Position numbers and translations under genes: made by a program. From positions 1 through 39,726 of the forward strand of contig NZ_JAPSHV010000014.1 in assembly GCF_031179385.1 (NCBI RefSeq): DNA of 39,726 bases. Reading direction: 5' to 3'. The notes under the pieces are model-generated. The model was not told the DNA's origin. It searched no databases and saw only the letters and a program-made list of their open reading frames with translations. Shown here piece after piece: positions 1-21,025 of this stretch; position 1 is the first letter of the stretch, and each line of letters begins with the position of its first letter. This DNA is from Arthrobacter sp. (GTDB lineage Bacteria > Actinomycetota > Actinomycetes > Actinomycetales > Micrococcaceae).

Positions 1-260
1 CACTCAGGAAGGTCAGGCAAAATCTCAGGACGCGCACCGCTTAGTTGCTGCAATTTCTGGTCCAACGTCAAAGCCTTCAGTAGAAGGGCTGAGCGTTCTT
101 GCGGTGTAAGGGCTGTATTCATCCAGGGTAGGTCGGCGGCCGTCGCTTGCGTCTCTGCGCTTGCGGCACCGATAGATCCAAGACCAGCGGCGGAAAGGGC
201 GAGAGGAAGGGCGACAGCCAGCGCAATAAATTTGCGTCTGCGGCTAGAACGTCCGGTCAT
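1..260 (-). CDS. Secreted glycoside hydrolase family 3 protein, N-terminal part (cut by window edge)
   Basis: The gene starts at ATG 260 and runs off the left edge, so only about 86 residues are visible. They comprise a basic N-terminus (RSSRRRK), a hydrophobic stretch and a signal-peptidase-like ASA-E junction, then mature sequence with PWMNTAL, ERSALLL and LPEC. All of these recur in the complete GH3 protein at 18461-21025 (PWMNTAL, ERSALLL, LPEC), so the two are paralogues. The Shine-Dalgarno GAAGGAGA (minus strand, about 265-272) is also the same as in the paralogue. The family hydrolyses terminal beta-linked sugars; this copy is predicted to be exported. It lies downstream of lacI copy 1 on the same strand, with 184 bp between. 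The catalytic residues are outside the window, so the substrate is unknown. The family call rests on similarity to the full paralogue. Confidence 0.8.
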   Translation of the reverse strand, partial: MTGRSSRRRKFIALAVALPLALSAAGLGSIGAASAETQATAADLPWMNTALTPQERSALLLKALTLDQKLQQLSGARPEILPDLPE

Positions 261-444
261 GAAAGTCTCCTTCGACATGAGTTTCAGATAATCAGCGGGT
301 AAATCCGTGTACGGACTTACCTGAGGTGGTAGCCGAACCGGGTGAACAAGTGCTCAATGCAACGCTCACATGATGTTCGTCACATGTTCCATCGGTTGCC
401 GTTTATTGCCCGCAGCGCTCCGATCCCAATGTCGGAACCTGCGG
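261..444 (-). promoter_or_regulatory. Leader between lacI copy 1 and the partial GH3 gene
   Basis: This non-coding stretch is the probable promoter/leader of the partial GH3 gene. It holds two direct TCACATG heptamers (366-372 and 380-386) and a short CCGT-GT-ACGG palindrome (306-315). No clear -35/-10 pair was found. Binding of the adjacent LacI-type repressor here is only an inference from position. Confidence 0.3.
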
Positions 445-1449
445 TTACGGAGTACACGTGGTGGAGTTGCGGACGAGTAGTCGTGTGGGGAGAACTACCG
501 GTTGGTTGGATTGGGATCGGGCTCCTGCGGCGAAGGCCAGGAGGTTGTTCACTGCGGTTGCGCCGAGTGAGTAGAGCGGGGCTTCGATTGTGGTCAGTGA
601 TGGGGTGATGAACGCGGCTCCGTAGCTGTTGTCGTGTCCGACCACGCTGACGTCACCGGGGATGGTGAGCCCGTTCTGCTGGAGGGCGCGGATGAAGCCG
701 ATGGCCATCTGGTCGTTGTAGGCGATCACGCCAGGGGTTCTGTGGCGCAGCCACTCCTTTGCGGCGGCTTCACCTCCGCTGATGGTGGGGTGGTTGGGGT
801 TGGTGCGTCGGACTGTGAGTTCGAGTTCCATGGCGGCTTCACGCAGGGAGCGCCAGCGCATGCCGTCTGCCCAGGATGCCTCCGGTCCGGCCAGGTAGGT
901 GATGGTTCGGTGGCCGAGTTCGCCGAGGTGTTCGGCGGCGCGGCGAATGCCTCGGGGGTTATCCGTTACGACGCTGGCTACGTCTTTGACGGCGCGGTTC
1001 ATGACAATGAGCGGCTTCTGCTTGGCCATCATCCGGATTGCGGAGTCGGACATGCGCGAGCTGGAGAGGACGATGCCGTCGACTGAGGCGAGGGCCCGTT
1101 CAAGGGCCTGGCGTTCCTTCTGTTCGGACTCCTGGGTGTGGGCAAGGAGCATGATGTAGCCGGCTTCCGCTGCGGCGGCTTCAGCGCCGCGGACCATTTC
1201 CGCGTAGACCGGATTCCGGATGTCCGCGATGACCAGCGCGATCATCGATGTTCGTTGCCGGTCGGGATGCTGAATGCCGGCAACATGGGCGGAGCGGTAG
1301 CCTACTTCAACTGCTGCGGAGAAGATTCGCTGTGCGGTGTGGTGGCTCACCCGCCCCGGCCGGGCGAAGGCGCGGGAGACCGTCGACGGCGACACTCCCG
1401 CAACGCGCGCCACGTCATAAATCGTGGGTAAACCAGACGAACCAATCAT
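445..1449 (-). CDS. LacI-family transcriptional regulator, copy 1 (left repeat)
   Basis: This is a 334-residue LacI/GalR-type repressor. It has an N-terminal helix-turn-helix (TIYDVARVAGVSPSTVSRA, about residues 8-26) followed by a periplasmic-binding-protein-like ligand domain (VIADIRNPVYAEMVRG; VSVVGHDNSYGA near the C-terminus). From SGLPT to RNST it is residue-for-residue the same as copy 2 at 6288-7295. Only the ends differ: it begins MIGS instead of MTDL and ends TTCTP instead of GPANS. The ATG at 1449 has no recognisable Shine-Dalgarno sequence, whereas copy 2 has GGAGG, so this copy may be poorly expressed. It lies 130 bp downstream of gntK on the same strand and precedes the GH3 gene. 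It probably regulates uronate genes and possibly the GH3 gene; the effector is not known. Confidence 0.88.
   Translation of the reverse strand: MIGSSGLPTIYDVARVAGVSPSTVSRAFARPGRVSHHTAQRIFSAAVEVGYRSAHVAGIQHPDRQRTSMIALVIADIRNPVYAEMVRGAEAAAAEAGYIMLLAHTQESEQKERQALERALASVDGIVLSSSRMSDSAIRMMAKQKPLIVMNRAVKDVASVVTDNPRGIRRAAEHLGELGHRTITYLAGPEASWADGMRWRSLREAAMELELTVRRTNPNHPTISGGEAAAKEWLRHRTPGVIAYNDQMAIGFIRALQQNGLTIPGDVSVVGHDNSYGAAFITPSLTTIEAPLYSLGATAVNNLLAFAAGARSQSNQPVVLPTRLLVRNSTTCTP
460..1438. repeat. 979-bp direct repeat, left copy (carries lacI copy 1)
   Basis: Position 460 aligns with 6306 and 1438 with 7284 (constant offset 5846); the flanking bases 459/6305 and 1439/7285 differ. Translations in several frames on both strands are the same in the two copies, so the DNA looks identical or almost identical across the unit. 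The same orientation and 4.9 kb of separation make a recombination substrate around the uronate operon. No terminal inverted repeats or transposase are present, so it is a duplication or gene-conversion tract, not an insertion sequence. Confidence 0.93.
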
Positions 1450-1579
1450 GAATGTGCTGGTTCGGTAGGCACATGCGGGAGCAAAATCGCGGCGAGCATC
1501 TGATGCCAGCTAAGCAAGGCTGATCGCATGTCGATCCAGCTGACTGCGGTGGTACTCTGCGCCTTTACGCGGCTCAGCA

Positions 1580-2101
1580 TTATTGACTCTGAACGCCGAT
1601 GTTAATAGCCGTTAGCCACCGGGCGGCATGCGCCGCCAGCATATCCGGCGTATCGGCGATATTGAGTATGACCCCGGCTTCATCCGCTTCCAGCGCTTCA
1701 AGGGTGTGCAGTTGGGACGCCAAGAGCGAGGGCGGCATGAAGTGCCCCGGCCGCGACGCCATGCGTGCGGTCAGCAGTTCCACGGATCCGTGAAGGTGTA
1801 TGAACCGTGTGTCCTCGGCACCGATGCGGATCAGGTTCCGGTAAGAACGCTTCAGCGCACTGCACGCGATGACCAGCGAGCTCCCCTCCGCTGCGGCGAA
1901 ACACCGTCCGATCTCCTCGAGCCATGGCCGGCGGTCGTCGTCGTCCAAAGGAATCCCAGCCGCCATTTTCTCGACGTTGTGGGCCGGGTGCAGCGAATCG
2001 CCGTCGAGGAAACCTGCTCCAAGCTCCCGCGCCAGAAGTGCTCCGACTGTGCTCTTGCCGCAGCCGGAGACACCCATGACTACGACATGGTGTGTGCTCA
2101 C
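1580..2101 (-). CDS. gntK: Gluconokinase (GntK/IdnK type)
   Basis: The protein has 173 residues, the usual size of thermosensitive-type gluconate kinases, and phosphorylates D-gluconate to 6-phosphogluconate in the cytoplasm. A Walker A P-loop GVSGCGKST lies at residues 10-18, followed by the family signatures [29 protein letters not shown] and RPGHFMP. The start is GTG at 2101, which overlaps the TGA of manD (GTGA), so translation is probably coupled. It is the last enzyme gene of the minus-strand uronate operon. Its link to uronate breakdown is indirect: the product of the upstream enzymes is 2-keto-3-deoxygluconate, which needs a KDG kinase that is not in the window. GntK may serve gluconate co-metabolism, or could have a relaxed substrate; the latter is speculation. 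Confidence 0.9.
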
Positions 2102-3327
2102 CAGTCGTGCACCGTACCGTCGGAGAGCCGGTTATAGGGCAGGTACGCCTGCTGGTACGGGAACGACGCCGCTGCCTCCTCGTTCAGCTCGACACCGAGA
2201 CCGGGGTTGTCCCCCGGGTGCAGGAAACCGTCCGCGAAGGTCATGGACTGCTCAAAGACGGTGTTGGTCTTCGCGCTGTGTTCCATGTACTCCTGGATAC
2301 CGAAGTTGTGGATAGCCAGGCCGACGTGCGCCTGGGCCGCAAGGCCAACCGGTGAAACATCGGTAGGTCCGTGGAAGCCGGACTTGATCTGGTACTGCGC
2401 CGCGTAGTCCATGACCTTTTTCAGCGGCGATATGCCGCCGAAGTGCGTGGACGCAGCACGCACGTAGTCGATGAGCTGCTCGCGGATGAGGGTCTGGAAG
2501 TCGAAGACAGTGTTGAAGATCTCGCCAACGGCCAGGGGAGTGGTGGTGTGCTGTCGGATGAGCCGGAAGGAGTCCTGGTTTTCGGCGGGAGTGACGTCTT
2601 CGAGCCAAAACAGGTCATAAGGTTCCAGCGACTTGCCGAGTTTCGCGGCCTGAATCGGGGTCATGCGGTGATGTCCGTCGTGCAGCAGCGGCAGCTCGGG
2701 GCCGAACTCGTTCCGCACAGCTTCGAAGACGGTGGGGATATGACGCAGGTAAGCCCGGGTATCCCAGTCCTCCTCGGTGGGCTGGGCACCGCGGCCCGCG
2801 GGCTCGAAGTCGTAGCGCTCACCGGTGGCCTGGGCCTGCGCTGCAACACCGTACAGGGCCTTGATGCCGGGCACCGAGGTCTGCACACGGATGGACTTGT
2901 AGCCCTCCTCCAGGTGGTGGCGGATGGAGTCGAAGAGCTCCGGCAGGTCGCGGCCGGACGCATGACCGTAGGTGCGCAGCGCTGTGCGGGAGGCACCGCC
3001 CAGCAGCTGGTACACCGGCATGCCGGCGGCCTTGCCCTTGATATCCCACAGGGCCATATCGACGGCAGCGATCGCGGCCATCGTGACCGGCCCACGGCGC
3101 CAGTAGGCGCTGCGGTAGAGGAACTGCCAGGTGTCCTCGATACGGTGCGGGTCCTTGTTGATCAGGAGCTGAGTGACATGTTCCTTGAGGTAGGAGGCAA
3201 CAGCCAGTTCCCGGCCGTTCAGGGTGGCATCACCGAGACCGGTGATGCCCTCATCCGTAGTGATTTTGAGCGTAACGAAGTTCCGGCTCGGGCTGGTGAC
3301 AATGACTTCGGCGGCAATAATTTTCAT
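2098..3327 (-). CDS. manD: D-mannonate dehydratase, enolase superfamily (ManD/RspA type)
   Basis: The protein has 409 residues. It removes water from D-mannonate to give 2-keto-3-deoxy-D-gluconate, using Mg2+. Visible family marks are [20 protein letters not shown] in the capping/barrel junction and three metal-ligand motifs: Asp in LLHDGHHR, Glu in [12 protein letters not shown] and Glu in [18 protein letters not shown] and a C-terminal Trp, typical of ManD proteins, are also present. Characterised members usually read HDVHHR; here Gly replaces Val. The chosen ATG (3327, MKIIAAEV) has AAAGGTCC just upstream; an upstream in-frame extension would run into the preceding gene. A 49-bp gap separates it from the fructuronate reductase gene, and its TGA overlaps the gntK start. 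Some family members are low-activity or gluconate-specific, so the exact substrate rests mainly on the neighbours. Confidence 0.9.
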
Positions 3328-3376
3328 GGTGGACCTTTCAATAAGCAGGCGCGTTAGAGCGCGGAAAGGGGGACTG

Positions 3377-4807
3377 TTACCAGTTGCCCCGAAGGCTGTG
3401 GACGAGATTGACGACGGCGCCATCAGCGCCGAGGTCGGCGCTTAATGCCGTCACAAGGGCTCGGGTGATGGTCTTGCCGGAGAGTTCCAGGATGCCAATG
3501 AGGACCAGGAGGTCAGCTTCGGCATCCGCCGGCCTCGCGCCGTCGACATGCAGTTGGACCAAATAGTCGATCCAGGCAGCAACGATGCGGGCCGCACCCT
3601 CACCAGTACGGCCTGCCGAACGCTCAGCGATCAGAACCGGAACGGCCCGCATACGGAGTTTGGTGGAACCATCGGCGCCGATCTGCCCAAGCAGATGCTC
3701 GATCCGCCCATTGCGGAAGCGACTCAGCAAAGCTTCCCGATAAGCGGGAATGTCGAGCTCGGGCTGGTGCAGATGAGCGGCTGCTTCATTCCAAAACATC
3801 TCCAACTCGGCTGCGCAGGACGGGTCTGTTACAGCCTCCGCGACCGTCCTGAGTCCCCGCAATTGACCGGTGTAGGCGAGCAACGAATGGGCGCCGTTGA
3901 GTAACCAGAGTTTGCGCTGCTCGAACGGCGCTATGTCCTCCACGAAGTAGGCTCCCGCATTTTCCCAGTCGGGGCGACCTGCAGGGAACTTACCGCTGAG
4001 CACCCAATTGGAGAAAGGTTCGGCTATTACGGGAGCTGCGTCAGCGAAACCGGTGGCTTCGCGCACTGTGACGATATCGGGCTCGGTAGTGCGCGGGGTG
4101 ATGCGATCCACCGAAGTGCTCACGAAAGATACGTTCTCGGCAATCCAGTCGGCAAGCTCTGTGGAGACGAGGGCGGCCAAGCCCGCGATCGCTTGAAAAG
4201 CCGCTGCACCGTTGGACCCCAAATTGTCGCAAGGCACGACCGCAAGGGGGCCGGCATTCGTGCGACGGCGCGCATCAAGTCCCGGTAAGACGCGTGCGCC
4301 CATGGTGGCCAATTGAGGATAACCATCTTCTACATCGAGGCTTCCCACCCGGGCCCACACATCATTGAGGGCGCGTGCATCTGCTGCGACAGCGGGAGCG
4401 GAAACATCCAGGAGCCCGTCGGGGCCGAGGTGATAGGCCGGTTCAGTGATGGTAATCGTCATCAGCGCCGTCTCTGGCGCTGATAGAACCGAGGTGAGTC
4501 GGCGGAGGTCCTTACCATCGAATGCGGCGCTGATGCTCGCGATGACGCTGAAGTTGTCACCGTCATCACCGCGTTCCACGAGGGTGTAGAGCCCGTCCTG
4601 CGCGGCAAGAGTTGTTGCTGCCTCCTGACTGCGCCCGGTGAAGGCAGCGATGCCCCACTCGTGCTTCGGGTCGGCCTGCTCGGTGTACCAGGCCTGGTGC
4701 GACCGGTGGAAGGCGCCGAGCCCAATATGCACCATCCGAACCGGTGCCGCGGGGCGGACGCGGGCAGTGGTGCGGTTCAACGCCCGCACATCGTTGCGAA
4801 CGCTCAC
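3377..4807 (-). CDS. uxuB: D-mannonate oxidoreductase (fructuronate reductase), mannitol dehydrogenase family
   Basis: This 476-residue polyol-specific long-chain dehydrogenase/reductase is predicted to reduce D-fructuronate to D-mannonate with NADH. The N-terminal Rossmann fold shows the signature [15 protein letters not shown] (about residues 28-42). The catalytic Lys-x4-Asn-x2-His pattern is present as KLWLLNGAH in the C-terminal domain. Mannitol or altronate oxidoreductases share this fold; the call of fructuronate reductase depends on its place between uxaC and manD. The start is GTG 4807, overlapping the uxaC stop as GTGA, which indicates translational coupling. Its stop lies 49 bp before the manD start. 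Confidence 0.87.
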
Positions 4808-6219
4808 AGCTTGAAGACCCGTCGCGGCGCGGCGTCGACGACGTCAACGATCAGTTCTTCAGCACGGGGGGCACTGATCCGGTGCTCGGCGACGAGTCGA
4901 GCCAGGAACGAGGCTTCGATCCGGCGCGACGCATCATGGCGGGCCGGGATGGAGCAGAATGCCCGGGTATCGTCGATGAAGCCCGACGACCGTGAGAATC
5001 CGGTGGTTTCAGTGATGGCCGAGCGGAAGCGAAGCATGGCATCGGGTGCATCGAGGAACCACCACGGCGCACCGATGTACACCGACGGGTAGAACCCGGC
5101 GAGGGGAGCCAGCTCGCGGGAGAAGACGGTCTCATCGAGCGTGAACAGGACCAAGTGGAAGTCAGGTGCGGTGCCGAAATCCTGCAGGAGCGGGCGGATG
5201 CCCTCTGTATAGCTGACCGGGAATGGGATGTCGTGGCCGGTGTCCCCGCCGAACTTTTCGAAGCTGGGCAGGTGATGGTTGCGGTAGGAACCGGGGTGAA
5301 TTGTCATGACCAGTCCGTCCTGAACCGACATGCGCGCCATTTCGTACATCATGTGCGCTTCGAAGGCGTCCCGGTCCTCGCCCGTCCATTCCCCGCAACG
5401 AGCGCGCGTGAAGAGCTTTTCGGCGTCGGAGCGGTCCAGTTTGAGGGTCAGGGGGGTGCGGACGCCGTGGTCTGCGGACACGGCACCGTGGTCAATGAAA
5501 TAGCGCCGGCGGTTCTCCATCGCGCGGATGTACCCGGCATATCCGGCTGCGCCGTCACCGGCCAGCCCGATCAGGCGGTCTACATTCTCCACCCAGTTGG
5601 GGTGCGCGATATTGATGTACGCGTCAGGGCGGAACGTTGGAACAACTCTGCCGTGGAAGGTGCTGTCCGCTGCGATCGAGGCGTGGTGCTGCAGGTCATC
5701 CAGCGGGTCATCGGTGGTGGCCAGTACCTCGATGTTGAAGTCGCGAAAGAGTTGGCGGGGACGAAATGCCGGCTCGTTGAGGCGCGACTGGAGCGTGGCG
5801 AACGTGCTGTCGGCCGTCGCCTCGGAAATCTCCTCGTCCAGTTTGAAGACATGCTCGAACTCTGAGCGGATCCAATAGCCTGATGCGGTGCCGTCGAACA
5901 GGGGCCATGCCCTGCAGAACTCCCGCCAGACGCTCCGGGGATCTGCATTGGCGATCGGCCCCTGGTTGAGCCGGTCTAGCGGCACTCCGCTGGCATGGAT
6001 GAGGCGCACGACGTAGTGATCCGGGGTCACCAGCAGCGTCGCCGGATCGGGGAAAGGAGTGTCTTGGGCCAGTACGGCGGGATCTACGTGGCCGTGCGGC
6101 GAGATGATCGGGAGAGACTCCACGAGGTCCAGCAGGTCCCGTGCGATTGCCCGCATGCCAGGGTCGGCCGGCAGGAGCCGATCGGGCTCGGCAGCGAGAG
6201 AAGAATTCGAAGAAGGCAT
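4804..6219 (-). CDS. uxaC: Glucuronate/uronate isomerase
   Basis: The protein has 471 residues, matching the normal length of this amidohydrolase-superfamily enzyme. It interconverts D-glucuronate and D-fructuronate (or galacturonate and tagaturonate), the first step of the pathway. The N-terminal metal motif SPHGHVDP (His42, His44) and the family sequences TDDPLDDL, FRPDAY, IHPGSYRNHH and YPSVYIGAPWWFLD are all visible. The ATG at 6219 was chosen because MPSSNSS-EPDRLLPADPG matches the usual family N-terminus; a TTG at 6237 is an in-frame alternative. Neither has a strong Shine-Dalgarno. It is the first enzyme gene of the operon, 68 bp downstream of lacI copy 2, with an operator-like palindrome (6261-6277) in between. 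Its TGA overlaps the next gene. Confidence 0.95.
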   Translation of the reverse strand: MPSSNSSLAAEPDRLLPADPGMRAIARDLLDLVESLPIISPHGHVDPAVLAQDTPFPDPATLLVTPDHYVVRLIHASGVPLDRLNQGPIANADPRSVWREFCRAWPLFDGTASGYWIRSEFEHVFKLDEEISEATADSTFATLQSRLNEPAFRPRQLFRDFNIEVLATTDDPLDDLQHHASIAADSTFHGRVVPTFRPDAYINIAHPNWVENVDRLIGLAGDGAAGYAGYIRAMENRRRYFIDHGAVSADHGVRTPLTLKLDRSDAEKLFTRARCGEWTGEDRDAFEAHMMYEMARMSVQDGLVMTIHPGSYRNHHLPSFEKFGGDTGHDIPFPVSYTEGIRPLLQDFGTAPDFHLVLFTLDETVFSRELAPLAGFYPSVYIGAPWWFLDAPDAMLRFRSAITETTGFSRSSGFIDDTRAFCSIPARHDASRRIEASFLARLVAEHRISAPRAEELIVDVVDAAPRRVFKL

Positions 6220-6260
6220 GCGCCCAATCGTTGCCAAGTGGAACGAGAATGGTCAACGAG

Positions 6261-6277
6261 TTGCCATTTGTTGGCAA
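6261..6277. promoter_or_regulatory. Candidate LacI-type operator before uxaC
   Basis: A perfect inverted repeat TTGCCA-N5-TGGCAA lies between the lacI copy 2 stop and the uxaC start. Further TTGCCAA/TTGGCAA heptamers occur at 6231-6237 and 7337-7343, next to the uxaC and lacI/dctP starts. The position and spread fit an operator for the duplicated LacI regulator; binding is inferred. Confidence 0.55.
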
Positions 6278-6287
6278 AGAGGCAGGC

Positions 6288-7295
6288 TTAGCTGTTCGCG
6301 GGTCCGGTGGAGTTGCGGACGAGTAGTCGTGTGGGGAGAACTACCGGTTGGTTGGATTGGGATCGGGCTCCTGCGGCGAAGGCCAGGAGGTTGTTCACTG
6401 CGGTTGCGCCGAGTGAGTAGAGCGGGGCTTCGATTGTGGTCAGTGATGGGGTGATGAACGCGGCTCCGTAGCTGTTGTCGTGTCCGACCACGCTGACGTC
6501 ACCGGGGATGGTGAGCCCGTTCTGCTGGAGGGCGCGGATGAAGCCGATGGCCATCTGGTCGTTGTAGGCGATCACGCCAGGGGTTCTGTGGCGCAGCCAC
6601 TCCTTTGCGGCGGCTTCACCTCCGCTGATGGTGGGGTGGTTGGGGTTGGTGCGTCGGACTGTGAGTTCGAGTTCCATGGCGGCTTCACGCAGGGAGCGCC
6701 AGCGCATGCCGTCTGCCCAGGATGCCTCCGGTCCGGCCAGGTAGGTGATGGTTCGGTGGCCGAGTTCGCCGAGGTGTTCGGCGGCGCGGCGAATGCCTCG
6801 GGGGTTATCCGTTACGACGCTGGCTACGTCTTTGACGGCGCGGTTCATGACAATGAGCGGCTTCTGCTTGGCCATCATCCGGATTGCGGAGTCGGACATG
6901 CGCGAGCTGGAGAGGACGATGCCGTCGACTGAGGCGAGGGCCCGTTCAAGGGCCTGGCGTTCCTTCTGTTCGGACTCCTGGGTGTGGGCAAGGAGCATGA
7001 TGTAGCCGGCTTCCGCTGCGGCGGCTTCAGCGCCGCGGACCATTTCCGCGTAGACCGGATTCCGGATGTCCGCGATGACCAGCGCGATCATCGATGTTCG
7101 TTGCCGGTCGGGATGCTGAATGCCGGCAACATGGGCGGAGCGGTAGCCTACTTCAACTGCTGCGGAGAAGATTCGCTGTGCGGTGTGGTGGCTCACCCGC
7201 CCCGGCCGGGCGAAGGCGCGGGAGACCGTCGACGGCGACACTCCCGCAACGCGCGCCACGTCATAAATCGTGGGTAAACCAGACAAATCAGTCAT
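6288..7295 (-). CDS. LacI-family transcriptional regulator, copy 2 (right repeat)
   Basis: This 335-residue repressor has an N-terminal helix-turn-helix (TIYDVARVAGVSPSTVSRA) and a sugar-binding-protein-like effector domain. ATG 7295 was chosen because GGAGG (7301-7305) sits at good spacing; the reading frame extends 16 codons further upstream without a better signal. The core is identical to copy 1 (445-1449) while the ends differ (MTDL start, GPANS end). It is transcribed away from the TRAP transporter genes, with a 266-bp shared control region, and heads the uronate operon. This suggests it represses both uptake and breakdown and is relieved by a uronate or pathway intermediate. The inducer is not deducible from sequence. 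Confidence 0.92.
   Translation of the reverse strand: MTDLSGLPTIYDVARVAGVSPSTVSRAFARPGRVSHHTAQRIFSAAVEVGYRSAHVAGIQHPDRQRTSMIALVIADIRNPVYAEMVRGAEAAAAEAGYIMLLAHTQESEQKERQALERALASVDGIVLSSSRMSDSAIRMMAKQKPLIVMNRAVKDVASVVTDNPRGIRRAAEHLGELGHRTITYLAGPEASWADGMRWRSLREAAMELELTVRRTNPNHPTISGGEAAAKEWLRHRTPGVIAYNDQMAIGFIRALQQNGLTIPGDVSVVGHDNSYGAAFITPSLTTIEAPLYSLGATAVNNLLAFAAGARSQSNQPVVLPTRLLVRNSTGPANS
6306..7284. repeat. 979-bp direct repeat, right copy (carries lacI copy 2)
   Basis: This is the second copy of the repeat at 460-1438, in the same orientation. Both borders fall within the ends of the lacI coding region, so each copy has its own first four codons and its own last few codons supplied by unique flanking DNA. 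That pattern is more like gene conversion between two pre-existing lacI genes, or a duplication trimmed to the gene, than an inserted element. Confidence 0.93.
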
Positions 7296-7312
7296 CAAGA
7301 CCTCCGCCACCA

Positions 7313-7379
7313 CCATAGACTCGATGAAGGCAACTATTGGCAACTGCTTTGAAGTTGACTCACCTATTTGAGTCTATGG
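7313..7379. promoter_or_regulatory. Divergent control region lacI copy 2 / dctP with long inverted repeat
   Basis: Perfect 10-bp arms CCATAGACTC (7313-7322) and GAGTCTATGG (7370-7379) enclose 47 bp that include TTGGCAA (7337-7343) and a TTGACT box (near 7355). The arrangement sits between the two divergent start codons. It fits paired operators or a looping site, but no promoter was identified with certainty. Confidence 0.45.
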
Positions 7380-7561
7380 GTGGAGTATTCACTTCACAGC
7401 GCAGGTCGAACAATTCAGCGAGGCAGGGTTCGACGACCACGTATCGGGGTGTATCTGCACGACGGTCACTGCGTCGGCTGGCAAGAGAATTCTCCCGTCA
7501 CGCCGCCGTCGCAGTAAGCCACCAACGATGCTCGCGGATGCGGCAGGAAAAGGTTACGACG

Positions 7562-8572
7562 ATGAACACCAATAAGAAATTAACAGTACTGGGATCAGCA
7601 GCGGCAATGATGCTCGCGCTGTCAGCCTGCGGCGGCGGGGCAGGAACCGCCGGCGGCGATTCGCAGACCCTGCGGCTCGCACTGAACCAGACGGAAACCC
7701 ACCCCTCCTATATCGCGCTGGACAACCTGGGAAAGAACGTTGAGGAAAGCACCGAAGGGCGCGTGAGCGTTGATGTCTTCGCCAATGAGACCCTGGGTGC
7801 GCAGCAGGAAGCCATCCAGCTGGTCAGCGACGGCACCGTTGACATGGCCGTCGTCTCGGGAACCCAGCTCGAGAACCTGAACCCCGACTTCCAGGTCTTC
7901 AACCTCCCCGGTGTCTTCGACAACGTTGAGCACCAGATGGGAGTTATCGGCGACGACGCGGTAGTAGGCGAGCTCTACAAGTCGCTTGAGGACCAGAACC
8001 TCACTGTTCTCGGAGGTTTCACGCAGGGCACCCGCAGCATCTACAACACCCAGGGACCCGTCAACACGCCGGAGGATCTCGCGGGCAAAAAGATTCGCGT
8101 CCAGGAATCCGACGTGCAGATGAAGATGATCGAGCTTATGGGCGGCGCTCCCACACCGATGGCTTTCGGTGAGGTCTACACCGCGCTCCAGTCGGGCGTG
8201 ATCGACGGGGCGGAGAACAACGAGATCTCCTACCTCACGCAGAAGCACAACGAGGTTGCGAAGTACTTCTCCAACACCAACCACCTTGTCGGCCTAGACT
8301 ACGTCGTCATCAATACTGCCGCTTATGAGGCCATGACCGAAGAGGACCGTGCCGCGTTCGAGGAGCAGTGGGCCGCGGCAGTCGAGGAGCACACCACCCT
8401 GTGGCTGGAGGAAACCGAGAAGGCGCACGCTGACCTCGAAGCCAGCGGCACCGAGTTCAACGACGTCGATGAGGAAGCTTTCAGTTCCGCTCTGGAACCG
8501 CTGATCGAGGAATACGTCGACACCGAGGTGGAACAGGCAATTTACGACGCCGCCCGCGCAGCAGCAGAGTAA
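7562..8572 (+). CDS. dctP: TRAP transporter solute-binding lipoprotein (DctP family)
   Basis: The protein has 336 residues and is the extracytoplasmic receptor of a tripartite ATP-independent transporter, predicted here to bind uronate or a related acid. ATG 7562 follows AGGAAAAGG (7545-7553) and gives a lipoprotein signal with lipobox LSAC (Cys23), typical of Gram-positive TRAP receptors. Family marks are LAGKKIRVQES with the Arg that pairs with the ligand carboxylate, GGAPTPMAFGEVYTALQSGVIDGAENN, and LVGLDYVVIN. The reading frame is open for 75 codons upstream, but that part has no signal-peptide logic. It is followed 4 bp later by dctQ and then dctM. Placement divergent from the uronate operon is the main hint for its substrate. 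Confidence 0.93.
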   Translation: MNTNKKLTVLGSAAAMMLALSACGGGAGTAGGDSQTLRLALNQTETHPSYIALDNLGKNVEESTEGRVSVDVFANETLGAQQEAIQLVSDGTVDMAVVSGTQLENLNPDFQVFNLPGVFDNVEHQMGVIGDDAVVGELYKSLEDQNLTVLGGFTQGTRSIYNTQGPVNTPEDLAGKKIRVQESDVQMKMIELMGGAPTPMAFGEVYTALQSGVIDGAENNEISYLTQKHNEVAKYFSNTNHLVGLDYVVINTAAYEAMTEEDRAAFEEQWAAAVEEHTTLWLEETEKAHADLEASGTEFNDVDEEAFSSALEPLIEEYVDTEVEQAIYDAARAAAE

Positions 8573-8576
8573 CCAA

Positions 8577-9206
8577 ATGGAGAATATGAGCAGCGATCAG
8601 CCAGAAGGAACGGGCAACGATCGGTCAACCACTCCAGAACAGGCTCCGGCTGGGGCGAGCGATGCTCGCCCCTCCGGTGGGCCGGTGGTGGCAGCTCTGG
8701 AGACCACACGACAACTGATCGACCGTGTGTTGGCACTGTTGTGTATAGCGATTTTCGCCGCGTTGGTCATCGTCGTCGCCTGGCAGGTGTTTTCCCGCCA
8801 GGTGCTTGGTGCGCCGGCTACCTGGACCGAGGAATCAGCACGCTACGTCTTCGTCGTCCTGGCGCTGCTCGGTGCCGCATTAGTGTTCTCTGAGCGCGGC
8901 CACATCGCCGTCGAACTACTGGTTAACAAGTTTTCCGTACGCGTGCAGAAGATCGTCGCCCTTGCCGTCGAAGGTTCGATTATCTTCTTCGCCGGATACG
9001 TCATGATCTATGGAGGGCTGGCAGTGGCAGCGAACGCCTGGACCCAGAACATCTCCACGATGCCGGTAAGCGTAGGTCAGGTCTACTTAACCCTGCCGGT
9101 CGCCGGCGCGTTGATCATCTTCTTCGCGGTGTGCCACATAGTGGGCATGTTCGCGGGCACCGAGAAGCCTGTGCCCGAAATCGACATAAACAATCAAGGC
9201 ATCTGA
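8577..9206 (+). CDS. dctQ: TRAP transporter small permease (DctQ family)
   Basis: This 209-residue membrane protein starts 4 bp after dctP. An unusually long hydrophilic N-terminus (about 40 residues, rich in Gly, Pro, Ser) precedes four transmembrane segments, beginning with VLALLCIAIFAALVIVVAWQ. The family motif around WTEESARYVFVVLALLGAA is clear. The subunit pairs with DctM in the membrane. ATG 8577 is used; an ATG at 8586 is also possible, and the only nearby GGAG (8579-8582) is badly spaced for both. The gene ends 7 bp before dctM, consistent with one transcript. Confidence 0.92.
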   Translation: MENMSSDQPEGTGNDRSTTPEQAPAGASDARPSGGPVVAALETTRQLIDRVLALLCIAIFAALVIVVAWQVFSRQVLGAPATWTEESARYVFVVLALLGAALVFSERGHIAVELLVNKFSVRVQKIVALAVEGSIIFFAGYVMIYGGLAVAANAWTQNISTMPVSVGQVYLTLPVAGALIIFFAVCHIVGMFAGTEKPVPEIDINNQGI

Positions 9207-9213
9207 GGTCATC

Positions 9214-10524
9214 ATGGAACCCGTCATTCTCGCCTCGATTGTCCTCGTAGGCGGTTTCATCCTGGCGCTTGCCCTGGGCGCACCCGTTGCTGTCGCGATG
9301 GGCCTTCCTTCGGCCCTAGCTATTGTTGTCCTACTTGGCTGGGACTCGGGCGCCCTCACGTCAGCTCAGCGCCTGTTCACGGCGAGCAACTCCTTCGCCT
9401 TGCTTGCGATTCCATTCTTCATTCTTGCCGGCGGGCTGATGAACACTGGAGGAATCGCGCAACGACTCATCGATCTTGCGCAGGTCATAGCCGGGCGGGT
9501 GCCCGCTTCACTGGCGCAGACGACCGTTGTGTCCAATGCGATGTTCGGTGCGGTATCCGGTGCGTCGGTTGCATCTGCTGCGGCAGTAGGCTCCGTGCTC
9601 TCTCCCCCGATGCGAAAGGCCGGCTACGATCCTGCTTTCTCGGCTGCGGTTAATGCGGCAGCTTCTCCCGCAGGAATGTTGATTCCGCCCAGCAACACTT
9701 TCATCATCTACTCGCTCGTATCGAGCACCTCAGTCGCGGCTCTCTTCATGGCTGGAATCGGCCCCGGTTTGTTATGGGCTCTGGTCTGCATGGCGATGGT
9801 TGCGGTGTACGCGCGCAAACGCCCTGAGCTTCGCGGAGGCGAGCGAGTTACCTTGCGCCAAGGCGCCGCTGTGTTGGTGCGTGCTATCCCGGCCCTGCTC
9901 ATGATCGTTATTGTCATTGGCGGGATTCTCACCGGGTTCTTCACCGCTACGGAGTCATCCGTCGTCGCAGTACTGTATTCCCTGGTCCTGGGCATAGTTC
10001 AGAAGACCCTGCCTGTGCGCGCGCTGCCCTCAATTACCCTTGAGGCGGCGAAGACAACGGCGATCGTCATGCTGCTTATCGGCGTATCGGGCATTCTGGC
10101 CTGGGTGATGTCTTTCGCCCGTGTGCCCGTGCTCGTCGCTGACGCGCTCCTTGGCCTCACTGACAATACCGTTGTCCTTCTCATTCTGATCATGATCATT
10201 CTGCTCCTGGTGGGCACCGTGATGGACCCGACCCCGGCAATCTTGATCTTCACGCCGATTTTCTTGCCGATCGTCATTCAGCTCGGAGTCGATCCGATTC
10301 ATTTCGGAGCCATGATGGTGTTCAACATGTGCTTGGGGAACATCTCGCCGCCTGTGGGTAACAACCTCTTCGTAGCCGCAAGAGTGGCGGGCGTTCGTAT
10401 TGAACCAATGATCACTCGGATCATGCCCTTCTTCTGGGCACTTACCGTCGCGCTATTCATTGTCGCTTTCGTCCCTCAGTTATCGATGTGGCTACCGACC
10501 GTCATGGGCCTTGTAACGCCGTAA
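9214..10524 (+). CDS. dctM: TRAP transporter large permease (DctM family)
   Basis: The protein has 436 residues, full length for the ion-coupled transport subunit, and about 12 hydrophobic segments. Typical stretches are LALGAPVAVAMGLPSAL, FFILAGGLMNTGGIAQRLI, SNAMFGAVSGASVASAAAVGS, NAAASPAGMLIPPSN and the C-terminal MDPTPAILIFTPIFLPIV with NMCLGNISPPVGNNLFVAARV. ATG 9214 has TGAGGT upstream. The gene closes the dctPQM operon and is followed by a strong hairpin. A decayed relative of its C-terminal third lies at 17581-18065. Confidence 0.95.
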   Translation: MEPVILASIVLVGGFILALALGAPVAVAMGLPSALAIVVLLGWDSGALTSAQRLFTASNSFALLAIPFFILAGGLMNTGGIAQRLIDLAQVIAGRVPASLAQTTVVSNAMFGAVSGASVASAAAVGSVLSPPMRKAGYDPAFSAAVNAAASPAGMLIPPSNTFIIYSLVSSTSVAALFMAGIGPGLLWALVCMAMVAVYARKRPELRGGERVTLRQGAAVLVRAIPALLMIVIVIGGILTGFFTATESSVVAVLYSLVLGIVQKTLPVRALPSITLEAAKTTAIVMLLIGVSGILAWVMSFARVPVLVADALLGLTDNTVVLLILIMIILLLVGTVMDPTPAILIFTPIFLPIVIQLGVDPIHFGAMMVFNMCLGNISPPVGNNLFVAARVAGVRIEPMITRIMPFFWALTVALFIVAFVPQLSMWLPTVMGLVTP

Positions 10525-10617: not shown

Positions 10618-11508
10618 TCAGTCTTTGCTGTTCTCGAGGGCCACACTCAGGAAGGCTCGTGCGGCGGGACTCAGCAACCCGGGACGTTGCACCACGTCGA
10701 TCGATAGAGATTCTTTGATGTCGAGATCCCGCACTGTGAGTCCTGCTGAAGTCGCCAGATCGCGCCAAGACTCGGCCACGACTGCTATTCCCACTCCTGC
10801 CAGTACCAGAGGCAGGAGGGCTTCGCGGTGCTCAATTTCGACGACAGCTACGCTTCGCTCGGCAGCGGCGAGAACCTCCTCAGCGGCCCGGCGCATTCCG
10901 GTTCCTGTTTGCCCAACAATCAACCGGGCATCCGACAGATCCTTCGGCCGTACAGGCCCATTGCCGGGATGCAGCGCAGCGCCATTGCGGGCGACACATA
11001 TATAACGGTGGCACTGCAACGGATGAAGGGTCAGATCGGTGGGTGGAAGCAGCGTTGGTGGACGGGCGATCAGTCCCAGTTCCGCATTGCCGGTCCGAAG
11101 CGCGGAAGCGACATCGTCGGTGGTATCTGCTGAGCGGACACGGACCTGGACTCCTGGATAAAGGGTGAGAAACTGACCCACCAACTGAGCTAAGGGACTA
11201 ACGGCCTGTGAGGGCATGCAGCTCAGCACCAGTCGACCGCCCCTCAGCCCATGGACTGCATCGACGGATGAGCGAGCAAGATCCATGCCATGCAGGACTT
11301 CCCTGGCCGCCGGCACGAGCGCCTCTCCCGCTGCTGTAAGCACCAGCCTGCGACCCGCCCGGTGGAACAGCGGTGTCCGAAGTTCAGTCTCCAAACCTCG
11401 CAAAGCATGAGAGATGGAGGGCTGAGCAACCAGCAGGGCGTCCGCAGCGCGGTGAACTCCACCCTCGTCCACGATCGCCAAAAAGTAGCGCAACTGACGT
11501 ACATCCAT
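10618..11508 (-). CDS. LysR-family transcriptional regulator of the tartrate-type module
   Basis: The protein has 296 residues. The N-terminal winged helix-turn-helix is MDVRQLRYFLAIVDEGGVHR followed by LLVAQPSISHALRGLE; the effector domain has LVLSCMPSQAVSPLA and VLAGVGIAVV. ATG 11508 was preferred to an upstream start because GAGGA lies 7 bp before it and the family normally begins at this point. It is divergent from the gntP-like transporter, the classic LysR layout, with a LysR box (11523-11541) covering its own start region. It likely activates the transporter-dehydrogenase-kinase genes with a hydroxy-acid co-inducer; the inducer is inferred from context. Confidence 0.9.
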   Translation of the reverse strand: MDVRQLRYFLAIVDEGGVHRAADALLVAQPSISHALRGLETELRTPLFHRAGRRLVLTAAGEALVPAAREVLHGMDLARSSVDAVHGLRGGRLVLSCMPSQAVSPLAQLVGQFLTLYPGVQVRVRSADTTDDVASALRTGNAELGLIARPPTLLPPTDLTLHPLQCHRYICVARNGAALHPGNGPVRPKDLSDARLIVGQTGTGMRRAAEEVLAAAERSVAVVEIEHREALLPLVLAGVGIAVVAESWRDLATSAGLTVRDLDIKESLSIDVVQRPGLLSPAARAFLSVALENSKD

Positions 11509-11522
11509 GCGGCAATCCTCAC

Positions 11523-11541
11523 TGATAGTCAACGTCTATCA
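11523..11541. promoter_or_regulatory. LysR box
   Basis: A perfect inverted repeat TGATAG-N7-CTATCA, which includes the T-N11-A pattern of LysR-type sites, lies 15 bp upstream of the lysR ATG. A second inverted repeat CCAAG-N12-CTTGG (11543-11564) follows directly toward the divergent gene. Together these look like recognition and activation sites for autoregulation and divergent control. Confidence 0.65.
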
Positions 11542-11667
11542 ACCAAGCACATTTTAGGTCTTGGAACTTCTCATCTGTGACGTGCTTCACTGGATCGACC
11601 TGAACTTTTCAACCCTGGTGTGAGTATCAACCCACTCGGGATCAACGATGATTCTGGAGCAACTCCC

Positions 11668-13095: not shown

Positions 13096-13161
13096 TCCCA
13101 GCTTCTACACGCGACTACGAACAGCTGCAAGTTCCCTGAAAGAAAAGGTAGATCAAACATC

Positions 13162-14265
13162 ATGACCAGAACACACCGGATTGCCGTCATCGCCGGCGAC
13201 GGAATCGGACAGGAAGTAGTTCCCGAAGGCCTGCGTACCCTCGAAGCCGCCGCGGAAGCCTATGACTTTGAACTGAAGACAACGGAATTTGACTACGCGA
13301 ACGCGGACTATTACCTGAAGCACGGAAAGATGCTCCCCGACAACTGGTTCGAGGAACTCAGTACCTTCGACGCCATTTTCTTCGGAGCAGTCGGGTGGCC
13401 GGAGATCGTGCCTGATCACATCTCGCTCTGGGGCAGTCTCCTCCAGTTCCGTAGGCACTTCGACCAGTACGTCAGCTTGCGTCCCGTGAAGCTATTGGCG
13501 GGCATGGACAGTCCACTCGCCGGTCGCAAGCCCGGCGACGTCGACTTCTACGTCGTCCGCGAAAATACCGAGGGTGAGTACTCCAGCATCGGCGGGAAAA
13601 TCTTCGAAGGCACTGACCGCGAAACCGTGATTCAGGAAACCGTCATGACCCGCACGGGCGTGGACCGCATCCTGAAATACGCGTTCGACCTCGCTCAGAG
13701 CAGGCCAAGAAAACATCTCACCTCAGCGACCAAGAGCAACGGCATCTCCATCTCGATGCCGTACTGGGACGAGCGTGTGGAAGAAATGGCCAAGGGGTTC
13801 AATGAATTGAAAGTGGACAAGTACCACATCGACATACTCACGGCGAACTTCGTCATGCACCCGGACTGGTTCGACGTCGTGGTTGCCAGCAACCTTTTCG
13901 GTGACATCCTCTCCGACCTGGGTCCAGCATGCACCGGGACCATTGGAATTGCGCCCAGCGGCAACATCAACCCCGAACGCAAATTCCCGAGCCTCTTCGA
14001 ACCGGTACACGGATCCGCTCCGGATATCGCAGGCAAAGGAATCGCCAACCCGGTCGGACAGATCTGGAGCGCCGCCATGATGCTGGAACATCTCGGCGAA
14101 ACGTCGGCGGCGGCAGGCGTACAGCGCGGTTTCGAAGACGTTCTGGCTCGCGGGGACAAAGCCGTTCTCACCCCCGACCTTGGCGGAAAAGCCACCACTG
14201 AAGTCCTCGGCAAGAGCATCAGCGACGAAATCAAAGCAGCAGCCCTCGCGGGCGTCGGCAAATAG
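13162..14265 (+). CDS. Tartrate dehydrogenase/decarboxylase or D-malate dehydrogenase
   Basis: This 367-residue NAD-dependent beta-decarboxylating dehydrogenase belongs to the isocitrate/isopropylmalate dehydrogenase family. Signatures are IAVIAGDGIGQEVVPEG, LRPVKLL, FYVVRENTEGEYS and NLFGDILSDLGPACTGTIG, then EPVHGSAPDIAGKGIANP. FGAVGWPEIVPDHISLWG and FRRHFDQYVSLRP are typical of the TtuC/DmlA group. Such enzymes convert L- or meso-tartrate to D-glycerate and CO2, or oxidise D-malate to pyruvate. The next gene, glycerate kinase, favours the tartrate role. ATG 13162 is preceded by AAGAAAAGG. It is 66 bp from the transporter gene and probably cotranscribed. Confidence 0.9.
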   Translation: MTRTHRIAVIAGDGIGQEVVPEGLRTLEAAAEAYDFELKTTEFDYANADYYLKHGKMLPDNWFEELSTFDAIFFGAVGWPEIVPDHISLWGSLLQFRRHFDQYVSLRPVKLLAGMDSPLAGRKPGDVDFYVVRENTEGEYSSIGGKIFEGTDRETVIQETVMTRTGVDRILKYAFDLAQSRPRKHLTSATKSNGISISMPYWDERVEEMAKGFNELKVDKYHIDILTANFVMHPDWFDVVVASNLFGDILSDLGPACTGTIGIAPSGNINPERKFPSLFEPVHGSAPDIAGKGIANPVGQIWSAAMMLEHLGETSAAAGVQRGFEDVLARGDKAVLTPDLGGKATTEVLGKSISDEIKAAALAGVGK

Positions 14266-14327
14266 CCCTCCCGGCGAGCTCTCAACCTATCGGAGACCGC
14301 CATCGGATGCTTCCCCAGTAGCACCGC

Positions 14328-14357: not shown

Positions 14358-14383
14358 TCATATGTCTGACGGAGACCCCATAC

Positions 14384-18065: not shown

Positions 18066-18460
18066 GCAACTGCGCAGATGCAGTCTGTGAATGACCGCGC
18101 AGCGCCCCTGTGGACAAGAACCCCGATCTTTGGTCGCGTATAGGCGTATAAAGCGTTCGTTGACGACGTGGTAGGTGTCCCTAATAAAGCTGCGAGTGAA
18201 TGGGACGCCAGCGATGTAGATGTCGGCGCGGATAGCTTCCAGCGTCAGTTCGATCCCAAGTGCGGGCCGCTGATCTGTTAGAAGCCCTCAGTTCTGAAGC
18301 AACAAGTGGCAACGGGTGCGCCCTGTGACATTCCTCATGTCAATGTGGGCTTCGCCACACTTCTCCGGGCGCCACTCGGGCTTGTGGCCTCGGCTGGGTG
18401 ATCTTTCGATCACCGCTCCGGCCTCTGATTTCCATTTACTGTGTCGAAGGAGACGTTACA
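18066..18460. promoter_or_regulatory. Upstream region of the complete GH3 gene with two inverted repeats
   Basis: The left part is decayed DNA: a minus-strand frame around 18117-18290 reads like protein but has no start and was not recognised. Two operator-like elements follow: TGACAT-N5-ATGTCA (18326-18342, perfect) and GGTGATC-TTTC-GATCACC (18397-18414, perfect). Their position 45-135 bp before the GH3 start suggests control of that gene. Confidence 0.5.
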
Positions 18461-21025
18461 TTGCAGCAATCAAATAGGAGGGGAAGCATCAGCCGGAAGC
18501 GTCAAATTCTTGCGCTCGCTGTTGCAATCCCCTTAGTGCTGTCCGGAGCGGGCCTGGGGTTCGCTGGCGCTGCCAGTGCGGAGTCCTCTCAGCAGACTGT
18601 TGCTGAATTGCCTTGGATGAACACCGCCCTTTCGCCAGAAGAACGTTCAGCTCTGTTGCTAGAGGCGATGACTCTCGCGCAAAAGATGCAGCAACTCACG
18701 GGCACACCGCCCGAAATCGTTCCTGAACTGCCCGAGTGCTACGGAGGAAGGCATGTTCGTGGGATCCCGGAGTTGGGTATACCCACTCTCCGCATCACCA
18801 ATGGGCCGGTGGGAGTGGGCCAAAACGACTGCGTTGATGCCGCTTTGATGGACCTTCCCCCAGCGCAGCGTCCGTTAGGTATCCCCTACATTCACCACAC
18901 CTCAGCCAAAGCGACGGCATTGCCATCGGCAACAGCCGCAGCAGCTTCTTTCGACCCTGATGTTGCAGGAACCTACGGTGATGTGATCGGTAGGGAGATG
19001 AATAATCTGGCCCTGCACGTGTTCGAAGCGCCGGGCGCCAACATGGCAAGGCTACCCATCCTCGGACGAAATTTTGAGTACTTCGGTGAAGACCCGTATC
19101 TGACGGGCAAGATGGCGGTAGCCGAAACTCAGGCGGTCCAGGACAGGGGGTTGATTGCAATGCCCAAACACTTTGCGGTGAATGAACAGGAAACCAACCG
19201 CCAGATAGTCAATACTCTGGTCGACGAGAGCACAATGCATGAGACGTACTTGTTGCCGTTCGAAATGGCCGTCAAGGATGGCGAAGCAGCCTCGCTCATG
19301 TGCGCATACAACTACGTCGACGGAGTGCCCTCCTGCGAGAACGACTACCTGTTGAACGATGTGCTGCGCGAGCAGTGGGGCTTCGAGGGGTACGTACAGT
19401 CCGACTTCTTCGCCACCAAGAGCACCGTCAACACGCTATTGAACGGCATGGACCACATGATGCCAGTTCCGCTGCAATGGGCTCCGAACCTTCTGCAGTC
19501 CGCTCTTGACAAGGACGAAATCAAAGTCTCGGATATCGACACAGCGCTCGACCGTCGGTACGTGCAGATGTTCAAGTACGGTATTTTCGACCGGCCACTG
19601 GTAGTCACGCCGATTGACTACGAGGCTGGTGGCGAACAGGCCTACGAGGTGGGCACAAAGGGGTCCGTCCTGCTGCAAAACAACGGCGCCCTGCCCATTG
19701 CTTCTGACGTTGAAGACGTCGTGGTTGTCGGCAAGGCGACGCAGGTTTACGCCCAGCAAGCGGTGGCTGGAGGCGCCAGGGTCGGCCACCCGTTCGGCAG
19801 CGGAGGTGGCAGCTCCGACGTCGTCCCTGCATACTCGGTCGCCCCCGTTGAGGGGTTCCAAAACACACTGAGTGAACTTGGTAACACCACTGCGAACGTT
19901 CGGCTTATCCTCGTGGATGATGCCAATCAGACAGCAACAATCGACGGCGAACAGGTCAGCTTCGATGATGCGCTCGCTGAGGCTGCCGGTGCGGATTCCG
20001 TCGTAATCATGGCTGGAACTATCTCTGAGGAGGGTGCCGATCGCGCCACCTTCGCGGACGCTACCGGTACCGAACTGGTGGAGATCGGCGACAATCTGGA
20101 TTGGTACGCACCTAATTCCAGCCAAATCGCCACCGTTAGCGGCACAAACTCCGCCAGCAATAGCAACACGGTCGATATGATCAAAGCCGTCATGGGCGCT
20201 GCTCCGGAAATGCACAAGAAGACAGCCCTTGTTCTCAAAGATAATGCTGGCGTTGCCATGGACCCGGCGCTTGTAGGCGAGCAGGGCCCGTCGATCCTCG
20301 AGGCATGGTTCCCAGGTCAGGAGGATGGGAACATCGTCGCCGACCTTCTCTTCGGCGTGGTTAATCCTTCCGGGAAGTCTCCTGTTACGTATCCGTTCGA
20401 AGGTAAGGGCTTCCTTGACCACCTTCAGAACGAACAGTTCCCCGGCGTCGTGGTTCCGGGCGATCCGGTGCGCATCGGGTTCGGCAATACCGGGGCGGTT
20501 ATCAACGGCAGGCCCACTGTGGAATACACAGAGGAAGGGAATATTGGCTACCGCTGGTACGACAGCAACGTCAGTGGCGACTGCCCAACCGCCGCAGACG
20601 GATCCAATCCATGTGTTGCTTTCCCATTTGGCCATGGCCTTTCCTACACCGACTTCGAGACCTCAAAGTTGACGGTGACTCCCAAGGTCTCGGACGGCAC
20701 CAAGCCGATCAAGGTCCAATTCTTCGTTGAGAACACAGGCCCGGTAGCCGGCGTCGAAACACCGCAAATCTACGTCAGCTTGCCGGAATCAGCGAACGAC
20801 TCACCCAAGCGACTCGTCGGGTTCGACAAGGTTGAGCTGCAGCCTGGAGAGAAAAAGAGGGTTGAAATCGTCATCGATCCGTCTACATCCAACCATCCGC
20901 TCTCCCAATGGGATGCCGAGGCAGATAAATGGTCGACTCCCGCCGGTGATTTCAAGGTGCAAGTGGGTGCATCGGAAGCGCTGACCGAAACAATCAAGGT
21001 CTCCGCTACCCCCCGCGGACGTTAA
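18461..21025 (+). CDS. Secreted glycoside hydrolase family 3 (beta-glucosidase/beta-xylosidase type)
   Basis: From TTG 18461 the protein has 854 residues. That start was chosen because GAAGGAGA lies just upstream exactly as in the paralogue at 1-260; the frame is open for 21 more codons before it. A signal peptide (basic SRKRQ, hydrophobic core, ASA-E cleavage) implies export. The GH3 N-domain contains MPKHFAVNEQETNR (Lys236, His237) and VQSDFFATKS with the likely nucleophile Asp315; SDF in place of the common SDW is noticeable. The C-domain starts near SVLLQNNGALPI and includes a Gly-rich GSGGGSSD loop. A fibronectin-III-like domain begins near FPFGHGLSYTDFE. The enzyme probably frees sugars from plant oligosaccharides outside the cell. 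The exact glycoside is not predictable. Confidence 0.92.
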   Translation: MQQSNRRGSISRKRQILALAVAIPLVLSGAGLGFAGAASAESSQQTVAELPWMNTALSPEERSALLLEAMTLAQKMQQLTGTPPEIVPELPECYGGRHVRGIPELGIPTLRITNGPVGVGQNDCVDAALMDLPPAQRPLGIPYIHHTSAKATALPSATAAAASFDPDVAGTYGDVIGREMNNLALHVFEAPGANMARLPILGRNFEYFGEDPYLTGKMAVAETQAVQDRGLIAMPKHFAVNEQETNRQIVNTLVDESTMHETYLLPFEMAVKDGEAASLMCAYNYVDGVPSCENDYLLNDVLREQWGFEGYVQSDFFATKSTVNTLLNGMDHMMPVPLQWAPNLLQSALDKDEIKVSDIDTALDRRYVQMFKYGIFDRPLVVTPIDYEAGGEQAYEVGTKGSVLLQNNGALPIASDVEDVVVVGKATQVYAQQAVAGGARVGHPFGSGGGSSDVVPAYSVAPVEGFQNTLSELGNTTANVRLILVDDANQTATIDGEQVSFDDALAEAAGADSVVIMAGTISEEGADRATFADATGTELVEIGDNLDWYAPNSSQIATVSGTNSASNSNTVDMIKAVMGAAPEMHKKTALVLKDNAGVAMDPALVGEQGPSILEAWFPGQEDGNIVADLLFGVVNPSGKSPVTYPFEGKGFLDHLQNEQFPGVVVPGDPVRIGFGNTGAVINGRPTVEYTEEGNIGYRWYDSNVSGDCPTAADGSNPCVAFPFGHGLSYTDFETSKLTVTPKVSDGTKPIKVQFFVENTGPVAGVETPQIYVSLPESANDSPKRLVGFDKVELQPGEKKRVEIVIDPSTSNHPLSQWDAEADKWSTPAGDFKVQVGASEALTETIKVSATPRGR

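Follow-up and report, generated by a model that had tools for sequence, protein, structure and literature searches.

In Arthrobacter sp. (RefSeq assembly GCF_031179385.1), a uronate catabolic operon, uxaC-uxuB-manD-gntK, is flanked by two genes for a LacI-family regulator that are identical over 979 bases, and this gene appears to have been copied very recently from its ancestral place between the dctPQM transporter genes and uxaC (copy 2) to the far end of the operon, between gntK and a gene of the glycoside hydrolase family 3 (GH3) type (copy 1). The window, that is, the whole 39,726-nucleotide stretch analyzed here, is an entire contig (NZ_JAPSHV010000014.1; C106 below) of a draft assembly that comprises 3,195,510 bases in 233 contigs and is 92.19% complete. 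We put the probability of a real, recent event in the direction from copy 2 to copy 1, gene conversion and duplication taken alike, at roughly 0.62, a figure that overlaps with that for the plain duplication considered below. The transfer would have been one-way and confined to the coding region.

Direct base comparison of the two tracts (460-1438 and 6306-7284, same strand, offset 5846) gave 979 matches in 979 bases, which bears out an earlier note on this DNA that had reported two apparently identical lacI direct repeats at a constant offset. In BLASTN the match runs on to 990 bases, and the 3 mismatches that this brings in all fall within the last 11 bases, beside the start codon; the second-best BLASTN repeat in the window is a 95-base inverted match of 87%. 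Both lacI frames are intact on the minus strand (334 and 335 amino acids), and the encoded proteins are identical apart from residues 2-4 and the tails: the shared part, which runs from SGLPT to RNST, is preceded by MIGS and followed by TCTP and the stop in copy 1, and by MTDL and GPANS in copy 2. The identical tract starts 11 bases into the reading frame and ends 12-15 bases short of the stop codon; its borders lie within the coding ends, as the earlier note had also proposed. A duplication of the operon as a whole was considered and rejected: the assembly contains the middle unit once, although an assembly by itself does not distinguish a single unit from a multiple one, and no other LacI-family match in this genome exceeds 34% identity.

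Both copies encode LacI-family regulators with a LacI helix-turn-helix and a periplasmic-binding-protein-like sensor domain (in copy 1, PF00356 at 49 bits against a cut-off of 27 and PF13377 at 113.7 bits against 26.5; copy 2 is identical over both domains). All 18 NCBIfam matches of this LacI fall far under their cut-offs, the best being lactose_RbsR with 200 of 382 bits, and no uronate repressor (UxuR, UxaR, ExuR, KdgR) is among these 18, a direct comparison with those proteins not having been made. Judged from its context, the protein is probably a repressor of uronate uptake and catabolism. The open-licence literature, searched by listings, yielded no paper on this regulator in Arthrobacter.

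To place the two copies, we compared the loci of relatives, the named near ones being Arthrobacter and Pseudarthrobacter. Congeners were searched at E <= 1e-90 and the family at E <= 1e-85, with at most five best candidates scored per genome; loci were taken from the best 80 of 126 relatives, 40 of them being printed for comparison of neighborhoods, and contigs fetched twice were counted once (L008/L111, L009/L153, L011/L112, L012/L113, L013/L120, L014/L119, L015/L122, L016/L121). Leaving aside the genome of the window, 5 of 37 congeners and 41 of 394 members of the family have this LacI, always once per genome, so that two copies are present only in the genome of the window among the 42 of 395 family genomes that carry it. 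A second near-identical lacI was not seen in the other printed loci, the second LacI being 54% in L028 and 38% in L034. In L113, L114, L153 and L154, weak LacI relatives (25-32%) are found at other places. A metagenome-assembled genome (L010) whose contig stops near the end of lacI was examined as a candidate for a second duplicated genome and rejected; it holds one close copy, with the next best at 39%, so the contig break there is no sign of duplication.

The arrangement of copy 2, with dctP, lacI and uxaC in this order, is the commonest among the fetched relatives and is found in nine loci (L008, L109, L009, L154, L012, L015, L016, L020, L021). In five others (L011, L013, L014, L117, L118), lacI meets gntK end to end on the opposite strand; of the remaining printed loci, some have no dct genes in the vicinity of lacI and others are too short for a judgement. 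None of the printed loci of relatives has lacI directly after gntK on the same strand. The sequence that follows gntK differs, by eye, in the two relatives inspected; the left flank of copy 1 (1-459) has no DNA match in the other 37 congeners, and in the best matches to 1439-2140 likeness begins only at 1614 or later. The tail of copy 2, TGPANS, resembles those of relatives (TAPAAG, TRPATS), whereas the tail of copy 1 does not, and the Shine-Dalgarno sequence and flanking operator-like sites of relatives are kept by copy 2 and not by copy 1. Upstream of copy 2, pairing with the 16S rRNA end is calculated at -10.7 kcal/mol; the value for copy 1 is 0.1, and a set of 1500 random 22-mers has a median of -3.8. 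Because it is copy 2 that retains the operator-like sites, ribosome site and tail of relatives, copy 2 is, on this comparison, the ancestral gene and copy 1 the newcomer.

The age of the event can be judged from fourfold sites: within the tract the copies differ at 0 of 206 (upper 95% bound 1.4%), while copy 2 and the orthologous gene of the congener G037 differ at 109 of 189; the copying is therefore recent. Identity at the DNA level to G037 and G035 is 80.5% and 81.3% for lacI copy 2 and 83.3% and 83.4% for uxaC, the other genes of the cluster ranging from 65% to 88%. Since the divergence of copy 2 is close to that of uxaC, the tract looks native, and nothing in its sequence marks it as imported. 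Of the two origins offered in the earlier note, a very recent duplication or conversion agrees with the 979/979 identity, the absence of fourfold differences and the single-copy relatives. The other, conversion that keeps two long-lived regulators identical, could not be shown: two copies occur in 1 of the 42 genomes with this LacI and in no other searched genome, so concerted evolution of the paralogues cannot be seen.

The simplest route would be gene conversion acting on a relic of an older lacI already present ahead of the GH3-type gene, with a coding-region-sized duplication nearly as likely. Conversion is weakly favored, slightly ahead of plain duplication, because the tract is limited to the coding region and is adjoined at its 5' end by 11 diverged but similar bases. 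A likeness of this kind, with transitions as the only differences, is equalled by 2 of 1164 window 11-mers ending in CAT, and eight or more matches of any kind are reached by 17 of them. Several points weigh against this explanation. Beyond the other end of the tract, 1 of 15 bases agrees. Local alignment detects no homology between the flanks of the copies (the upstream score is reached by 0.81 of 300 shuffles, or 0.88 if the 11 bases are included, and the downstream score by 0.13), so the supposed relic rests on those 11 bases. A once-working paralogue should have left a Shine-Dalgarno sequence, and copy 1 is without one; no unconverted lacI was found at the place of copy 1 among the genomes searched. 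That all three differences lie in one terminal stretch of 11 bases has a probability of 1e-6 if they are randomly placed, a number that is biased because BLAST stops where likeness stops. Finally, small differences between the copies of an exact 979-base repeat may have been merged by the assembler in a draft of 233 contigs.

Some of these observations are just what would be expected if a coding-region-sized piece of copy 2 had been inserted by illegitimate recombination between gntK and the GH3-type gene, with no earlier lacI there: the missing Shine-Dalgarno sequence and the unrelated flanks fit an insertion into unrelated DNA, and the identity of the tracts and the single-copy state of relatives fit equally. 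Such an insertion would, however, have to place both breakpoints within 11-15 bases of the start and stop codons, give each end an in-frame start or stop of its own, and leave the resemblance of the 11 adjoining bases to chance; we consider plain duplication a serious but rather unlikely alternative. More doubtful still is an assembly artefact, in which the assembler, meeting a repeat close to where a contig ends, would have created the second copy or its perfect identity. The contig ends 445 bases beyond the stop codon of copy 1, the draft is fragmented, and ordinary short sequencing reads are shorter than the exact 979-base repeat. Yet such an error needs two separate false joins (gntK-lacI and lacI-GH3), each leaving an intact frame, and the distinct end codons and the 11 diverged bases are unlike copying by an assembler.

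The putative regulon can be traced through operator-like sites. The pattern GTTGCC-N5-TTGCC, with up to one mismatch, has five matches in the window (395, 6260, 7329, 18298, 36589) against 0.64 expected, a number reached in 0 of 100 shuffles. Two of them precede the GH3 genes, left and second, at 395 and 18298; uxaC and lacI copy 2 follow those at 6260 and 7329, and the fifth lies just before the frame 34860-36551. No operator-like site was found directly upstream of copy 1. Among relatives, GGCAA-N5-GGCAA begins 48-50 bases before the start of the matched lacI, or at equal distance on the other strand, in L109, L111-L114, L153, L154 and L008-L012, and 60-93 bases before it in L014, L015 and L016, which amounts to 11 genomes after removal of duplicates (the site of the window at this place is 7329-7344). 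In L020 it stands about 100 bases upstream of lacI, in L017-L019 only after lacI, and in L013 and L021-L024 it is absent from the lacI-upstream place.

A fuller site, GGCAA-N5-GGCAAyCGrTTGCC, is present before uxaC in L035 and before GH3 in L043, with variants in L015-L018 and L031. Its right part is an even, CG-centred palindrome, a form given as typical of LacI-family operators in PMC4052901, and palindromes of the TGGCAAyCGrTTGCCA type precede uxaC or GH3 in several distant relatives. Relative to this palindrome, the sites of the window keep the left half, GGCAAC, and have a degenerate right half; if up to 3 mismatches are allowed, the loose palindrome TTGCCAN5TGGCAA occurs 10 times in the window where 14.2 are expected, and so shows no enrichment. 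The idea of a direct-repeat operator of a new type was dropped, as relatives show the repeated GGCAA within a longer site with an ordinary palindrome. A genome-wide regulon from the pattern alone was likewise abandoned: the genome contains the exact GGCAANNNNNGGCAAC 4 times and its reversed control 5 times, so the pattern by itself shows no enrichment. What supports the operator is its conserved position in relatives, together with the scan of the window. One of the 4 genomic matches (C5:2187) is inside a coding frame. Another (C41:2812-2827, GGCAACAGATGGCAACTGCTTT) lies upstream of a further GH3-family frame of this genome, which is possibly a regulon member.

The upstream regions of the two GH3 genes of the window are homologous (0 of 500 shuffles). 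G528 has a GH3 relative that likewise carries the site, and its upstream region is homologous to each of these two (0 and 2 of 500). The same comparison is not significant against L043 (92 and 44 of 500) or against the region upstream of uxaC (58 of 500). Together, the sites suggest one regulon composed of lacI/dctPQM, uxaC and two GH3 genes, and both LacI proteins should bind the same putative operators. If so, the operator footprint defines a testable regulon that joins uronate catabolism, a tripartite ATP-independent periplasmic (TRAP) transporter and two GH3 hydrolases. Judging by family and context, the copy 2 repressor would keep lacI/dctPQM, the uxaC-uxuB-manD-gntK operon and both GH3 genes shut until released by a signal derived from uronates, and copy 1 would encode nearly the same repressor with poor translation signals. 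Having neither a Shine-Dalgarno sequence nor an operator of its own, copy 1 therefore probably adds little repressor. A selected design with two repressors, in which copy 1 is kept for extra negative feedback in the induced operon or for local service to the GH3 promoter, would account for the operator-like site between copy 1 and the GH3-type gene and for the position of copy 1 on the operon strand. A scan of 1-8000 for promoters and terminators found neither, so that no terminator-like site separates gntK from copy 1, although shuffled sequences average 4.9 terminators. Against this design stand the poor pairing with 16S rRNA, the 130-base gap after gntK and the identity of the copies, which makes copy 1 too young to show selection, and we regard it as improbable.

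Long identical direct repeats are a substrate for RecA-dependent loss or tandem gain of the unit they enclose, and gene amplification or deletion between flanking direct repeats is a known process. The two tracts are accordingly a good recombination substrate, otherwise ordinary. A crossover between them would delete 5846 bases, and the full lacI then standing before the left GH3-type gene would begin as copy 2 does and end as copy 1 does. If sister chromosomes recombined unequally, a further unit would be gained in tandem. The suggestion of the earlier note that the 5.85-kb unit could be lost or amplified is thus a sound deduction from the repeat. As in known amplifications, the repeats are long, identical and placed around a catabolic unit, but here no variant with a lost or extra unit was seen. 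That the arrangement works as a switch, with crossover removing or multiplying uxaC-uxuB-manD-gntK and ongoing conversion keeping the arms identical, seems very unlikely. Were it true, GH3 would on loss stand directly behind an autoregulated lacI, and the population would mix uronate users with cells capable of uptake and hydrolysis only. If the arrangement is real, the strain is a natural system in which two identical regulators enclose a catabolic operon and in which loss, gain and conversion between them can be measured.

What is unusual about the case is how clean it is; the process behind it, either recent copying of a gene or gene conversion, is an ordinary one. As in the genome-specific recent LacI-family duplications noted in PMC4052901, a LacI-family sugar regulator is present twice in one genome and once in relatives; unlike those cases, the copies here are identical over 979 bases and form direct repeats at both ends of an operon. 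As in the conversion and concerted evolution of prokaryotic paralogues treated in PMC6053082, the paralogues are closer within the genome than to orthologues, but those long-lasting cases differ from the single genome with two copies found here, which gives no sign of repetition over time. Recent regulator copies limited to the coding region are raw material for new regulons, and this one is caught before the copies diverge.

Cellulomonas aerilata (L043, 10001-13834) has lacI, a palindromic operator-like site and GH3 in the order and orientation of copy 1 and the left GH3-type gene, which counts among the evidence for the preferred explanation. Its LacI is only 57% identical, and the 20,978 bases fetched contain no relative of uxaC. 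Its GH3 is 79% identical to the second GH3 of the window, which does not adjoin lacI, and 57% over 53 residues to the left GH3 piece. With a threshold of E <= 1e-200, the second GH3 of the window was detected in no more than 2 of 396 genomes sampled across the order, one of these being its own.

Table 1. Repeats, operator-like sites and genes of the window.
Feature	Position	Strand	Basis and remarks
5' end of secreted GH3-type gene (left GH3-type gene)	1..260	-	Cut by contig end; 68% identity over 85 residues to the GH3 at 18398-21025
Operator-like site between lacI copy 1 and left GH3-type gene	395..410		GGCAATAAACGGCAAC
lacI copy 1 (apparently derived)	445..1449	-	334 aa; after gntK, directly upstream of GH3-type gene
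Identical tract, copy 1	460..1438	-	979 bases; base comparison
Diverged bases similar to copy 2	1439..1449	-	11 bases, shared ATG included; 8/11 match, 3 differences, all transitions
gntK, gluconokinase type	1580..2101	-	TIGR01313 over cut-off
manD, D-mannonate dehydratase	2098..3327	-	NF043051 over cut-off
uxuB-like mannitol-dehydrogenase-family oxidoreductase	3377..4807	-	Probable fructuronate reductase by context; NCBIfam scores below cut-off
uxaC, glucuronate isomerase	4804..6237	-	NF002794 over cut-off for 4804-6213; start codon uncertain
Operator-like site between lacI copy 2 and uxaC	6260..6277		TTGCCATTTGTTGGCAA on +; conserved in close relatives
lacI copy 2 (apparently ancestral)	6288..7295	-	335 aa from ATG at 7293-7295; between dctP and uxaC
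Identical tract, copy 2	6306..7284	-	979 bases; base comparison
Operator-like site upstream of lacI copy 2	7329..7344		GGCAACTATTGGCAAC; conserved in relatives
dctP-dctQ-dctM TRAP transporter	7562..10524	+	Divergent from lacI copy 2; dctQ by weak match and place
Operator-like site upstream of second GH3 gene	18298..18313		One mismatch
Second GH3 gene, whole	18398..21025	+	Glyco_hydro_3, Glyco_hydro_3_C, Fn3-like; start codon uncertain

The genes enclosed by the repeats are largely those named in the earlier note (Table 1): uxaC, manD and gntK stand on NCBIfam matches over cut-off, and uxuB keeps its name by context. Its statement that no transposase is present holds for the ten proteins in each of two scans, some frames of the window having been outside them. 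A composite mobile element was rejected, the repeats being lacI coding sequence and the proteins scanned including no transposase. A search with Glyco_hydro_3 returned three places in the genome and did not find the continuation of the left GH3-type gene: one place is the second GH3 of the window, and the other two are unlike such a continuation. A further GH3-family gene of the same genome (C5, 1-1512, minus strand) is likewise cut by a contig end.

To the right of the transporter genes, a decayed dctM-like remnant extends across more than one frame (17549-18092, minus strand; pieces 39-54% identical), and 95 bases within it (17853-17947) have 87% DNA identity, inverted, to dctM at 10183-10277. 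A frame for a DctA-like dicarboxylate transporter (15962-17077, minus strand) seems to lack its start, its matches beginning at about position 70 of the family models. Next to dctPQM, a row comprising a LysR-like regulator and a dehydrogenase-like protein (both named by eye), a GntP-family permease and a glycerate kinase (10618-15586) is probably a further sugar-acid cluster.

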